A DNA stretch of 64,000 bases from Paracoccaceae bacterium (GTDB taxonomy: Bacteria > Pseudomonadota > Alphaproteobacteria > Rhodobacterales > Rhodobacteraceae), in NCBI GenBank assembly GCA_024742835.1, contig JANSXS010000005.1, forward strand, positions 1 to 64,000, written 5' to 3'. The notes under the pieces are model-generated. The model saw only the letters and a list, made by a program, of their open reading frames with translations, made no database searches and was not told where the DNA came from. Position 1 is the stretch's first letter. Every line of letters begins with the position of its first letter. This document shows, piece after piece, positions 4,216 through 58,295 of this stretch. The translations under genes and the position numbers were made by a program.

Positions 4216-5244
4216 ATGACTACAGACCAGCCCGTCATTTCCTGCCGCGACGTCTGGAAACTTTTTGGACCCGATCCGCAAGGATACCTTGCCGGCATGA
4301 CACCGGGCCGCAGCTATGACGAGATCTGCGCGGATGGGTATATCGCCGGGGTCAAGGATGTGACCGTTGATGTGGCAAGGGGCGAGATGCTGGTCATCAT
4401 GGGCCTGTCGGGGTCCGGCAAATCCACGCTGGTCCGGTGCCTGTCGCGTCTGCATGACATTACCGGCGGCGTGATCGAGGTCGAGGGGCAGGATATCATG
4501 GCCCTGTCTGAAAAAGACCTGATCGAACTCAGGCGCTCCAAGATGGGCATGGTGTTCCAGTCCTTTGGCCTGCTGCCGCATCGCACGGTGCTGGAAAACG
4601 TGGCTTTTCCGCTGGAAATGCGCGGACAGGACAAGCATGCCCGCCGCGCCCGCGCGATGGAGGTGATCGAGCTGGTGGGCCTTGGTGGCCGAGAGGAGTA
4701 TTTCCCGCGCGAGCTTTCCGGTGGTCAGCAACAACGCGTGGGCATCGCCCGCTCCCTTGCCATCGAACCGGATATCTGGTTTCTGGACGAGCCGTTCTCG
4801 GCGCTCGATCCGCTCATCCGGCGCGAGATGCAGGATGAATTCCTGAGACTCCAGGGGATGCTGGGCAAGACCATCGTTTTCATCACCCATGATTTCGACG
4901 AGGCGCTGCGCCTTGCCGACCGTATCGCCAGAATGAAGAACGGCGTGATCGAGCAATGCGATACGCCAGACCGGATCGTGCTGGACCCGCAAACTGAATA
5001 TGTCCGGAAATTCACCGAGGATATCGACAAGGCCCGTGTTGTGCTTGCCGGGACGTTATCGACCCCGGTCAACGGGCACGCGGTCGAGGGCGCGCCCGTT
5101 TCAAGCCACGAGACCATCCAGAAAATCGCCCGGCAACTGGTGAACGACACCCGCGATCATCTGCCGGTGGCCGATGACAGCGGCAAGGTGATCGGCGTGC
5201 TGGAACGGCAAAAGGCGCTGGACGTGCTGCTTGGGGGCGCGTGA
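4216..5244 (+). CDS. Glycine betaine/proline-type ABC transporter ATP-binding protein (ProV-like)
   Basis: 342 residues from the ATG at 4216. Walker A is GLSGSGKST (63-71), the Q-loop is in VFQSFGLLPH, the signature is LSGGQQQR (168-175) and Walker B is IWFLDEP (188-194). The N-terminal ~45 residues (KLFGPDPQGYLAGMTPGRS) are the extension typical of ProV/OpuAA ATPases. The C-terminal ~75 residues contain only about one CBS-like unit (DHLPVADDSGKVIGVLERQKAL), shorter than the tandem CBS pair of osmoregulated OpuA. Its TGA is one base before the permease ATG, so the two are translationally coupled. Confidence 0.9.
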   Translation: MTTDQPVISCRDVWKLFGPDPQGYLAGMTPGRSYDEICADGYIAGVKDVTVDVARGEMLVIMGLSGSGKSTLVRCLSRLHDITGGVIEVEGQDIMALSEKDLIELRRSKMGMVFQSFGLLPHRTVLENVAFPLEMRGQDKHARRARAMEVIELVGLGGREEYFPRELSGGQQQRVGIARSLAIEPDIWFLDEPFSALDPLIRREMQDEFLRLQGMLGKTIVFITHDFDEALRLADRIARMKNGVIEQCDTPDRIVLDPQTEYVRKFTEDIDKARVVLAGTLSTPVNGHAVEGAPVSSHETIQKIARQLVNDTRDHLPVADDSGKVIGVLERQKALDVLLGGA

Positions 5245-5245
5245 T

Positions 5246-7240
5246 ATGGCCGATATCGCCACAAGCGCCTTGCCGTCGCGCCCCGCAACCCCGCCGCGTG
5301 ACCGGGTGCTGCAAGCCCTGCTTTTGCTGGCAGTCCTGCTGACCGCGCTGAAGCCGGTGCTGCCCGATATGCTGATCCGCCTGCCAGAGGCGTGGATCCC
5401 ACCCTTTGCCGCTTGGCTCGATGCGTTTTTCGAGGCGATCAAGGGCGATCCGGCGACTGGGCGTTTTGGTCTGATGATGATCACCCGTTGGTTTGCCGAA
5501 GGGCCGCTGGACTTTCTGTTGGGAGTGGCCGCCAACCTGTTGGAGGGCAAGTATCGCTGGCCCTTTGTCAGCGATCCGATCCCGTGGTCGGCCATAGCCG
5601 TGGCGGGGGCGGTACTTGGCTATTACCTTGGCGGTTGGAAAATTGCGCTTTTGGCGGGCGGTACCTTTGTCTGGACCGCGACGATGGGCCAATGGGAAAT
5701 CACCATGCAGACCCTGTCGGTTCTGGCCGTTGCCGCGCCAATGGGCTTTGCCATCGGGCTTGTCGTGGGCATTGCGGCGTGGAAATGGAAAGCTGTGGAT
5801 ACCGCGATCAGGCCGGTCTTGGCGGTGATGCAGACGCTCCCGTTCTATACCTACCTCTTACCCGCGGTGATCTTCTTCAAGGTCGGGCCGACGGCGGGGG
5901 CCATCGCCACCACGATCTACGCCACGCCGCCGATGATCCTGATGACGGCATTGGGGCTCAAGAAAGTATCGCCCGAGATCGTCGAAGCGGGCAAGATGTC
6001 GGGCTGCACCCGCTGGCAGATGCTGACCAAGGTCTATATCCCCTCGGCCCGCACCGAGATACTGGTGGGGGTCAATCAGGTGATCATGCTGTCGCTGGCG
6101 ATGGTCGTTCTGACCGCCTTTATCGGGATGCCGGGCCTGGGCGGCAAGCTTCTGGCGATGATGAACAGCTTCAAGCTGGGCCGCTCCATCGAGATCGGGA
6201 TCACCATCGTGTTGGTGGCCATCATGCTGGACCAGATGTCAAAGGCGTGGGTCCACAAGCTGCCCGAACATTTCGAGAAGGGCACGCCCTGGCATGTTCG
6301 GCACAAGTATCTGTTGATTGGCATCACCGGCTTTGTCGCCTTTTTCGTGCTGGCCCAGTTTGTTGAGTATTTCAACGAGGTGGGCCGCCGCCAGTCGCTT
6401 TCGATGGGCCGCGAGATCGACAGCGTGATCAAGGATTTTCTGGCGCTCGACGTGGTGCAGGCGGTAACCGGCACGATCCGCTATGTACTCAATGTCTGGG
6501 TTCTGGTGCCGTTCCGCGATGCTCTGCTGTGGATTCCGACGCCCGCCTTCATCCTGTTCGTCATGGCCTTTGCCTATGCGCTGGGCGGCAAGCGCCCCGC
6601 GATCTACGCCGCGGTCTTCTTCACGCTCGTGGCGCTGTCGGGCTGGTGGGACAGGTCGATCATCACGCTTTATTCCGTGCTATCCGCAGTGTTCATCTCC
6701 ACGCTGATCGGCCTGCCGCTTGGTATATTCGCCGCAAGGTCTGAAAAATGGGCCAACCGCATCCTGATTGTCTGCGACACGGCACAGACTTTCCCCAGCT
6801 TCATCTACCTGTTGCCTGCGATCATGCTGTTCGGCATCACCGACACCACCGTGGTGCTGTCCATAGTGATCTTCACCACCGTGCCGTTGACGCGCTACAC
6901 CATCGAGGGGCTGCGCGCCGTGCCGGCCGAGATGACAGAGGCCGCCGACATGTCCGGTTGCACTCGCTGGCAGAAGCTGACCTCGGTGCAGTTCCCGCTG
7001 GCCATGCCAACGCTGGCGGTTGGCTTCAATCAGGCGATAATGTTCGCCTTCTTCATGGTGATCATCGCGGCCTTTATCGGTACGCAGGATCTGGGGCAGG
7101 AATTGCAGCGCACGCTGGCGGGCACCGATCTGGGCAAGAACTTTGTCCTTGGCATCAACGTGTCGCTTATGGCGCTCACCTTTGACCTGGCGATCATGAG
7201 CTGGGCCAATCGCCGCCGAAAGGCACTGGGCCTTGGCTGA
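5246..7240 (+). CDS. Double-domain glycine betaine-type ABC permease (ProW-like tandem fusion)
   Basis: 664 residues, about twice the length of ordinary ProW. Two copies of the permease core are evident: the EAA-type loop SGCTRWQMLTKVYIPSA with FNQ/VNQ-like helix and AFIGMPGLG near residues 250-300, and SGCTRWQKLTSVQFPLA with AAFIGTQDLG near residues 570-620. Around them are roughly a dozen hydrophobic helices. One polypeptide therefore supplies both halves of the translocation pore, which would otherwise be a homodimer. It starts one base after the ATPase stop. No soluble binding-protein domain is fused to it. Confidence 0.9.
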   Translation: MADIATSALPSRPATPPRDRVLQALLLLAVLLTALKPVLPDMLIRLPEAWIPPFAAWLDAFFEAIKGDPATGRFGLMMITRWFAEGPLDFLLGVAANLLEGKYRWPFVSDPIPWSAIAVAGAVLGYYLGGWKIALLAGGTFVWTATMGQWEITMQTLSVLAVAAPMGFAIGLVVGIAAWKWKAVDTAIRPVLAVMQTLPFYTYLLPAVIFFKVGPTAGAIATTIYATPPMILMTALGLKKVSPEIVEAGKMSGCTRWQMLTKVYIPSARTEILVGVNQVIMLSLAMVVLTAFIGMPGLGGKLLAMMNSFKLGRSIEIGITIVLVAIMLDQMSKAWVHKLPEHFEKGTPWHVRHKYLLIGITGFVAFFVLAQFVEYFNEVGRRQSLSMGREIDSVIKDFLALDVVQAVTGTIRYVLNVWVLVPFRDALLWIPTPAFILFVMAFAYALGGKRPAIYAAVFFTLVALSGWWDRSIITLYSVLSAVFISTLIGLPLGIFAARSEKWANRILIVCDTAQTFPSFIYLLPAIMLFGITDTTVVLSIVIFTTVPLTRYTIEGLRAVPAEMTEAADMSGCTRWQKLTSVQFPLAMPTLAVGFNQAIMFAFFMVIIAAFIGTQDLGQELQRTLAGTDLGKNFVLGINVSLMALTFDLAIMSWANRRRKALGLG

Positions 7241-57045: not shown

Positions 57046-57696
57046 TCAGGGCTGTTTTGGCAGCCCCATGCCGATCATTGAATCGCGGGTGACAAGGCCT
57101 GCAAGCGCCGTTTCATCCATGCCGTCCGTCCCGGCGGGGCGGGCCGGGAGGACGAGATAGCGCATATCCGCCGTGCTGTCATGCACCCGGACGGTCATGC
57201 TGTCGGGCACATCAACGCCGAATTCGCGCAACACCTTGCGCGGCTCGATCACCGCGCGGGACCGATAGGCGCGGGTCTTGTACCAATCGGGTGGCAGGCC
57301 CAAAAGCGTGCGCGGATAGCACGAACACAGGGTGCAGACGATCAGGTTATGCACATCTTCGGTGTTCTCGACCACGACAAGATGCAGCGCACCGATATCA
57401 AACCCCATCTCGCGGCAGGCATCAGAACCATTGGATAAAAGGCGCGCCTTGAACGCCGGATCGCACCAGGCGCGCGCCACAACGGCGGCACCATTGGCCG
57501 GGCTGCGGGCATCCATCGCGTCGATCTGCGCGGCGACCTCGGCGGGCGTGACGATGCCCTTTTCGATCAGTAATTCGCGCGCGGCGATCTCCATCCGCTG
57601 CCAATAGGTCAGCGGCGCGTCATTGTCGGCGCGAAACGGATGGCCAGATGGGCTGAGCCCGTGGTCGTGGTCGTGTCCGGGATGGTCATGCGGCAT
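57046..57696 (-). CDS. Nitrile hydratase alpha-type subunit (or thiocyanate hydrolase gamma-like)
   Basis: 216 residues from the ATG at 57696. His-rich start (MPHDHPGHDHDHG), then the metal claw VCTLCSCYPRTLLGLPPDWY, with CTLCSC at 121-126, the cobalt-type motif (iron-type enzymes have CSLCSC), and YRSRAVIEPRKVLREFG. Two of the claw cysteines should become sulfinate/sulfenate. The enzyme hydrates nitriles to amides or, in the SCNase branch, thiocyanate to carbonyl sulfide. Last of three tightly packed genes; the beta subunit upstream is split in two, as in thiocyanate hydrolase. Confidence 0.88.
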   Translation of the reverse strand: MPHDHPGHDHDHGLSPSGHPFRADNDAPLTYWQRMEIAARELLIEKGIVTPAEVAAQIDAMDARSPANGAAVVARAWCDPAFKARLLSNGSDACREMGFDIGALHLVVVENTEDVHNLIVCTLCSCYPRTLLGLPPDWYKTRAYRSRAVIEPRKVLREFGVDVPDSMTVRVHDSTADMRYLVLPARPAGTDGMDETALAGLVTRDSMIGMGLPKQP

Positions 57697-57700
57697 CGTG

Positions 57701-57964
57701 TCAAAGCCTTTCCAGCCAATGCGCGTAAATCTCGGCGTCCAGCGTGTCCTCGGCCCGTTCGGCCCGGTCGCCCCAGATCTCTGCCATGGTAAAGCGCACG
57801 CGAAACAGTTCTTTGGGCGCGGCATCCAGCCCGTAGGCAAGCTGTTCGGGGTTCTTGTATGCACCAAGCGGGCGCTCAATCTCGCCGGTCTTGCCGCGCA
57901 GGTAATGCGGCGCGCGCACATGGCCCGGCGGCGACATCGTCTTGACGCGCACGCGCTCAGCCAT
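57701..57964 (-). CDS. Nitrile hydratase beta subunit, C-terminal half as separate gene
   Basis: 87 residues from the ATG at 57964: MAERVRVKTMSPPGHVRAPH with YLRGKTGEIERPLGAYKNPE and LFRVRFTMAEIWGD, ending IYAHWLERL. This is the SH3-like barrel forming the C-terminal half of NHase beta. It overlaps the gene for the N-terminal half by 8 bases in a different frame and is 4 bases from the alpha-type gene. An intact ATG and matching split in thiocyanate hydrolase favour a real gene over a frameshift. Confidence 0.8.
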   Translation of the reverse strand: MAERVRVKTMSPPGHVRAPHYLRGKTGEIERPLGAYKNPEQLAYGLDAAPKELFRVRFTMAEIWGDRAERAEDTLDAEIYAHWLERL

Positions 57965-58295
57965 CCTGCGCCTCGCCATAGCTGTCGCCGCGTTGCGCGA
58001 TTTCCTCCATCCGCGTGCCCAGTTCCTCAAGGGTGTAGACACCCTGTTCCACAAGGTTCTGGTTCACAGCGGCCATCCAGCGTTCGTAATAGGTCATGGT
58101 CTCGAAGGCGTCTTCGCCCATGTCCTCCAGCGCGCGACGTAGCCCGTCGACGGTGAAGAAACCCTTGCCGGAACACAGCATCATCAGCGCATCGACGCGC
58201 TTTTCCCAAAGCGCGAAATCATGTTCGCCTTTCGGGACGGGGCCTGCGTCCCGTCCGCCCATGTCATGCCAGCGGCGTCCGTCGGTATCACTCAT
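57957..58295 (-). CDS. Nitrile hydratase beta subunit, N-terminal half as separate gene
   Basis: 112 residues from the ATG at 58295: RRWHDMGGRDAGPVPKGEHD near the start (HDxGG...GPV is the NHase beta N-terminal motif), FALWEKRVDALMMLCSGKGF, ALEDMGEDAF and TYYERWMAAVNQNLVEQGVY. Helical N-half of beta, without its SH3 half. The alternative, an NHase activator (P14K/NhlE type) protein, is less likely because of the HDMGG motif. First gene of the trio; its TGA lies inside the next gene. Confidence 0.8.
   Translation of the reverse strand: MSDTDGRRWHDMGGRDAGPVPKGEHDFALWEKRVDALMMLCSGKGFFTVDGLRRALEDMGEDAFETMTYYERWMAAVNQNLVEQGVYTLEELGTRMEEIAQRGDSYGEAQDG

Follow-up and report, generated by a model that had tools for sequence, protein, structure and literature searches.

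The window considered here, a stretch of 64,000 nucleotides from a contig of a Paracoccaceae bacterium, carries on its minus strand three adjacent open reading frames (57046–58295) which, in the order of transcription, encode the N-terminal half of a nitrile hydratase (NHase) beta subunit (betaN), the C-terminal half of that subunit (betaC) and an alpha subunit of cobalt type. Such a locus raises the question of whether the beta subunit is really divided and, if it is, whether the three genes encode an NHase, a thiocyanate hydrolase (SCNase) or something else. The answer developed below is that this is a conserved trio of an already described arrangement with an SCNase-like arginine signature, and that it likely encodes a three-subunit, non-corrin-cobalt enzyme of the NHase family, of the AnhDEA kind, which would hydrate a C–N triple bond and whose betaN would load the cobalt.

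The three genes and their family scores

The betaN gene (AnhD-like; 57957–58295, minus strand; 112 amino acids) matches PF21006 (NHase_beta_N) with 72.5 bits and contains a conserved Arg in DGLRR together with a TYYERW motif. It is followed by the betaC gene (AnhE-like; 57701–57964, minus strand; 87 amino acids), which matches PF02211 (NHase_beta_C) with 74.4 bits and has a conserved Arg in GHVR, and then by the alpha gene for the cobalt-site subunit (AnhA-like; 57046–57696, minus strand; 216 amino acids), which matches PF02979 (NHase_alpha) with 271.7 bits. All three scores are well above the Pfam cut-offs, that of PF02979 being 27.2. The metal-binding motif and the arginine next to it, CTLCSCYPR, are encoded at 57310–57336 on the minus strand and form residues 121–129 of alpha (P0003); the Cys and Ser residues of the motif, and Arg129, are invariant in all 25 trio alphas aligned. 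Both beta domains, when aligned with 3qxe_B and 2dd4, likewise retain Arg, Tyr and Trp at the conserved positions. Reading frames, Pfam matches and the CTLCSC motif thus bear out the initial annotation in its view of the trio. That annotation gives no strand, and its description of three overlapping genes is correct for betaN and betaC, which share 8 nt (57957–57964), but not for betaC and alpha, between which there is a gap of 4 nt at the conserved alpha start. A promoter scan gave no sigma-70-like sites, and terminator-like sites number 6 against 1.5 expected.

With regard to the more specific families, alpha scores 259.9 bits against the NHase equivalog TIGR01323, passing the cut-off of 249.85, and 190.7 bits against SCNase gamma (TIGR03887), below the cut-off of 291.45. 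The beta halves, with 59.8 bits for betaN and 67.2 bits for betaC, both miss the cut-off of 152.2 for the two-subunit beta family TIGR03888, and betaN is nearer to this family than to the activator family TIGR03889 (16.7 bits). At the level of sequence profiles, the scores fit an NHase and not an SCNase. The AlphaFold model of alpha matches known structures of both NHase alpha and SCNase gamma chains (Z 20–22); its mean pLDDT is 76.1, and in residues 124–136, within the metal loop, the value is below 50 and the direction of Arg129 is not readable.

Alpha begins with MPHDHPGHDHDHGLSPSG (57643–57696, minus strand), a His/Asp-rich stretch in which a variable repeat stands behind an invariant MPHDH, the same pattern being found in 25 of 25 aligned sequences. 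The suggestion that this stretch might be a special feature for metal loading was considered and set aside, as it is equally a property of ordinary cobalt-type alphas and of SCNase gamma. Many ordinary alphas in the window's family start alike, SCNase gamma has a long His-Asp repeat, and all 30 fused-beta loci from the family (L002–L031) have 3–9 His in the 20–40 residues before the alpha core, by a crude count which may include residues upstream of the true start.

Constancy of the divided beta subunit

A scan of named genomes gave 512 confirmed loci, the best 80 of which (L033–L112) were kept. Within these 80, betaC and alpha are present throughout and betaN in 78, the contig ending before betaN in L034 and L109; in all 78 loci that hold both halves, the halves are in separate genes with no shared reading frame. 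Since L068 and L069 lie on one record, no more than 79 genomes are represented by the 80 loci. On that record (CP051232.1) the trio is found twice, with equal gene lengths, near both ends, perhaps as an assembly overlap. The nearest alpha in the scan, 92% identical, is that of Roseovarius aestuariivivens, and the named relatives of the trio (Roseovarius, Litoreibacter, Jannaschia and others) point to Rhodobacteraceae.

The division is not confined to this family. A search at class level used a profile built from 25 trio alphas, and the best-scoring loci were taken, such that the sample is skewed towards the trio type. It gave 28 loci (L115–L142) from 16 families outside the window's, and in all 28 the N, C and alpha genes are separate and follow one another in that order. 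In contrast, the best alpha-family matches within the window's own family (L002–L031) have alpha followed by an intact beta, in 30 of 30 cases. Other split orders also exist, namely C-alpha-N in L175 and alpha-N-C in L151; as the latter combines a split beta with a Trp-type alpha, it is suggested that the split arose more than once.

It could be argued that the split beta is no more than a frameshift, an assembly error or a gene in decay. The 8-nt overlap of the halves is of a kind that a recent frameshift could produce, and a 2012 study disregarded the Roseobacter CCS2 beta subunit on the ground that it ‘appeared truncated’ (PMC3323583), although that beta is probably a case of the same kind of split. 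Against such a reading, the conserved residues are retained in both halves, the halves are separate in 78 of 78 relatives holding both and in all 28 loci from other families, they occur in the two other orders, and in L089 a reading frame of 258 codons (about 4972–5747) stands between an intact betaN and an intact betaC. The joined or intact beta gene in relatives by which the division could have been overturned was found in none of the 78. In other words, the split as kept in relatives, together with L089, rules out a frameshift or an assembly error with near certainty. By eye, the intervening frame of L089 is lysozyme- or chitinase-like, with a peptidoglycan-binding end.

Activator genes and the loading of cobalt

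The initial annotation had seen no cobalt activator gene near the trio, and this extends to the whole assembly. In the window's genome (3.03 Mb, 99.89% complete) the one PF21006 match is the trio's own betaN, and the activator family TIGR03889 has no match at E ≤ 0.01 anywhere in the 3.03 Mb. PF21006 was searched at the same threshold in 80 genomes of the family, 64 with a low-scoring alpha (the window's included) and 16 with a high-scoring ordinary one, which were sorted by gene position into those with the trio only, with an ordinary NHase only and with both; G025, G109, G165, G170, G233 and G259 were dropped for missing alpha rows. The trio is the only alpha locus listed in 41 genomes, 39 of which have exactly one PF21006 match. 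In G101 the second match overlaps the genome's own alpha, and in G171, which has three alpha matches with one listed and which may not be trio-only, it lies 254 kb off. In contrast, 26 of the 30 genomes with ordinary NHase only have a second, betaN-type match behind beta, including G172 and G184 where this match is under the Pfam cut-off; a second PF21006 match is absent from the other four (G059, G061, G072 and G151).

Both NHase types are found in G127 and G278, the latter from the window's genus and holding an ordinary NHase with activator as well as a trio. G267 was left uncounted, since the script classed it as a double trio, whereas an activator-family match at its second locus exceeds the cut-off and this locus is probably an ordinary NHase in beta-alpha order. 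The cut-off of TIGR03889 itself is exceeded in 18 of 60 genomes, these being all 15 ordinary controls plus G043, G278 and G267, and in none of the 41 trio-only genomes, where weak matches in 12 fall on the trio's betaN. Outside the family, 23 of 28 genomes have no ordinary-type beta match above 100 bits; one PF21006 match is found in 21 of these 23 and two in G518 and G415 (with two and three alpha matches, respectively), in a count that omits matches overlapping alpha (G389, G521, G657). An ordinary beta is present as well in the remaining five (G321, G327, G359, G374, G666).

The hydration chemistry of cobalt with oxidised Cys ligands is established for the NHase family. In the trio, alpha would bind cobalt through its CTLCSC loop, while betaN and betaC together would stand in for a single beta subunit and close the pocket; the oxidised Cys ligands would be held by the conserved beta arginines, and water would be added to the C–N triple bond of the substrate. 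As an activator homologue, betaN probably forms a complex with alpha and loads the cobalt in the activator's place, after which the alpha-betaN complex would swap its alpha into the full enzyme. The genes, their homology, the motif, the kept split, the lack of a recognisable activator gene and the arginines held in common with SCNase are what the data support directly; assembly, a chaperone role for betaN and hydratase activity would follow by analogy with Streptomyces canus.

The S. canus enzyme, rather than the SCNase towards which the initial annotation had pointed, is the closest described system. ScNHase of S. canus CGMCC 13662 is reported as an activator-less, three-subunit enzyme encoded by anhD-anhE-anhA (PMC7329996, where Guo et al. 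2019 is also cited for it), with AnhD, itself a structural subunit, doubling in vitro as a metal and swapping chaperone (PMC7329996). Like the trio, it has a beta divided into N and C parts, the order N-C-alpha, a cobalt-type alpha and no activator gene in the genome. Unlike the trio, which is known from its genes alone, it is actinobacterial and its activity and maturation have been measured. The link is drawn from the gene order, the missing activator and the place of a Streptomyces locus (L176) on the trio side of the tree, the likeness being one of description. L176 is an annotated plasmid trio with this gene order, behind which lies a nickel/cobalt transporter gene; a further plasmid trio comes from Planktothrix (L173), and in these two loci the beta halves are annotated as ‘SH3-like domain-containing protein’ or ‘nitrile hydratase’. 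Two facts weigh against a built-in replacement of the activator: SCNase has a split beta and yet an activator, P15K, such that a split alone does not remove the need for one, and four of the 30 ordinary-only genomes likewise have no second PF21006 match. No biochemistry was found in the literature for any trio member in the window's bacterial family, and the listed titles and abstract openings gave no three-subunit NHase in Roseobacter, Roseovarius or Rhodobacteraceae.

Other systems are more distant. The two-subunit cobalt-type NHases of Pseudomonas putida and Pseudonocardia thermophila share the alpha fold (Z about 22), CTLCSC and the conserved beta Arg and Tyr, but have a single beta gene, usually with an activator behind it, and a Trp (rarely Phe or His) after CTLCSCYP. 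Eukaryotic beta-alpha fusion NHases, such as that of Monosiga brevicollis, also place beta ahead of alpha, in opisthokonts with an intervening His-rich stretch, and their activator is described as undiscovered (PMC3323583); unlike the trio, each is one fused polypeptide, and they are likened by description only. Toyocamycin NHase (ToyJ and partners) is, again by description, alike in having three subunits, its alpha alone being reported active (PMC7329996). In Phaeobacter inhibens, a transposon mutant of an NHase beta, which may be of either type, still made indole-acetic acid (PMC5148602).

The arginine pair, substrate and genomic setting

A feature beyond those in the initial annotation is a pair of arginines. 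The residue after CTLCSCYP is Arg in every N-C-alpha locus, in SCNase gamma (2dd4), in the annotated Azospirillum scnC (L174) and in L175; in other loci it is Trp, rarely Phe or His. The second Arg immediately precedes the conserved Trp of betaN, in YYERW of the trio and YYGRW of SCNase beta. After removal of nine repeat loci, four of them copies of the window, 168 loci were left, with both arginines in 113 of 113 split Arg-type loci and in the fused L174, and neither in 52 of 52 others; the window itself, left out of these numbers, also has both. The 113 include many close relatives, and the Arg/non-Arg difference needs only one change on the alpha tree. L034 and L109, having no betaN, do not enter the count for the second Arg, and in L162 the Trp that follows it is itself Arg. 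The arginines appear to follow lineage, not the split as such, because L151 is split and has Trp and Gln at the two positions. Two arginines reportedly control the selectivity of SCNase. Arg129 of the trio alpha stands at the position of SCNase gamma Arg136, which others have exchanged in both directions according to PDB titles (3vyg, SCNase R136W; 3vyh, NHase alphaW116R), and on alignment grounds the two residues would line the pocket in the present enzyme.

The trees were built from sets thinned to about every sixth of L033–L112 and every fifth of L002–L031, plus other loci, after removal of duplicates and a few more. In the alpha tree (81 rows), for which the Arg column was masked, a branch with support 100/99.6 separates 29 non-Arg rows, comprising 28 two-subunit enzymes and L151, from the trio and SCNase; the joined tree of alpha, betaN and betaC (79 rows) gives the same branch at 100/100 and places SCNase with L175 and L176 at 100/97. 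Judged from these sequences, the trio is set apart from ordinary Trp-type NHase with full branch support. The position of SCNase, to which the initial annotation had also looked, is less firm. It has a long branch, and free-search trees put it on the Arg side, yet on alpha the tests reject neither a place for it beyond the trio nor one among the non-Arg enzymes (p-AU 0.389 and 0.349), and in the joined set an alternative placement has p-AU 0.535 and slightly higher likelihood. A search for true SCNases found TIGR03887 over its cut-off in none of 398 genomes, and SCNase is therefore represented only by PDB 2dd4 and the annotated plasmid gene of L174.

Could the trio then be a thiocyanate hydrolase, with a pocket lined by Arg in which thiocyanate is hydrolysed and carbonyl sulfide and ammonia are formed? 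The enzyme of Thiobacillus thioparus (2dd4) has the same three-way split, the Arg after CTLCSCYP, the second Arg before the betaN Trp and a His-rich N-terminus, and the split and the two arginines agree better with kinship to SCNase than to two-subunit NHase, as the initial annotation had held for the split. The supposed order scnB-scnA-scnC is unconfirmed, a review giving alpha-beta-gamma-activator for T. thioparus (PMC7193024), and the family scores are those of an NHase, the alpha being far below the SCNase cut-off. Moreover, SCNase has P15K as its activator, as named in a reference title, whereas none was found in the window's genome; the Streptomyces locus L176, with the arrangement reported as an NHase in S. 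canus, has the same arginines; and there is no sulfur-metabolism gene among the eight neighbours searched. Overall, an SCNase is quite unlikely. Annotated SCNase is not always split, because in L174 (2518–4160, an Azospirillum ramasamyi plasmid) the gamma gene stands behind a fused N=C beta gene. The Arg signature is also present in L175 (2688–4411, a Rhizobium leguminosarum plasmid), where the genes run betaC-alpha-betaN and divergent CbtA and CbtB genes lie alongside.

A different view of the substrate is that the cyano groups hydrated by the trio are small ones or ones bound to a heteroatom (as in cyanamide, N-cyano compounds, cyanide and perhaps thiocyanate), and not those of ordinary alkyl or aryl nitriles; the two arginines would set the preference throughout the group. 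The strict occurrence of the pair in split Arg-type loci is in keeping with this, and for the S. canus enzyme the reported activity covers acetamiprid and thiacloprid but hardly indole-3-acetonitrile (PMC7329996). However, an activator-dependent Variovorax NHase acts on acetamiprid and thiacloprid too (PMC7329996), the Trp-type Pseudonocardia enzyme hydrates thiacloprid weakly, S. canus is likened by arrangement and not by its Arg residues, and the Arg pattern may go back to a single inherited event. This view, which we infer from such patterns, is tentative and less likely than not. Its extension, in which the Arg-pocket three-subunit enzymes of marine Rhodobacteraceae and other Alphaproteobacteria would be a distinct class acting on such compounds, with betaN as built-in chaperone and SCNase as one offshoot, is doubtful. 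The three-subunit NHase of AnhDEA kind is the preferred reading.

The setting of the trio is that of housekeeping genes wherever it was examined. Among eight neighbouring proteins searched, Pfam places a lipid A acyltransferase-like gene downstream and dnaX upstream, the others with a match being hemF, clpS, a short-chain dehydrogenase, a methyltransferase and a DUF1223 gene; a 155-codon frame just upstream of betaN has no Pfam match, and neither an amidase nor a cobalt transporter is found among the eight. The neighbour families met most often in the 80 relatives, named by eye, are acyltransferase-like (47 loci) and FliG-like (39 loci). Such surroundings point to a gene set long resident in the chromosome rather than to a nitrile operon of recent acquisition. 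The trio is present in the 80 named-genome loci related to Roseovarius, the best 80 of 512, and in no fewer than 40 further genera of the window's family, while the only enzyme of this arrangement found with a measured activity is from Streptomyces. With a split beta, a missing activator and two arginines linked in one enzyme, the loading of cobalt without an activator becomes a testable question, as does what separates the hydration of nitriles from the hydrolysis of thiocyanate.
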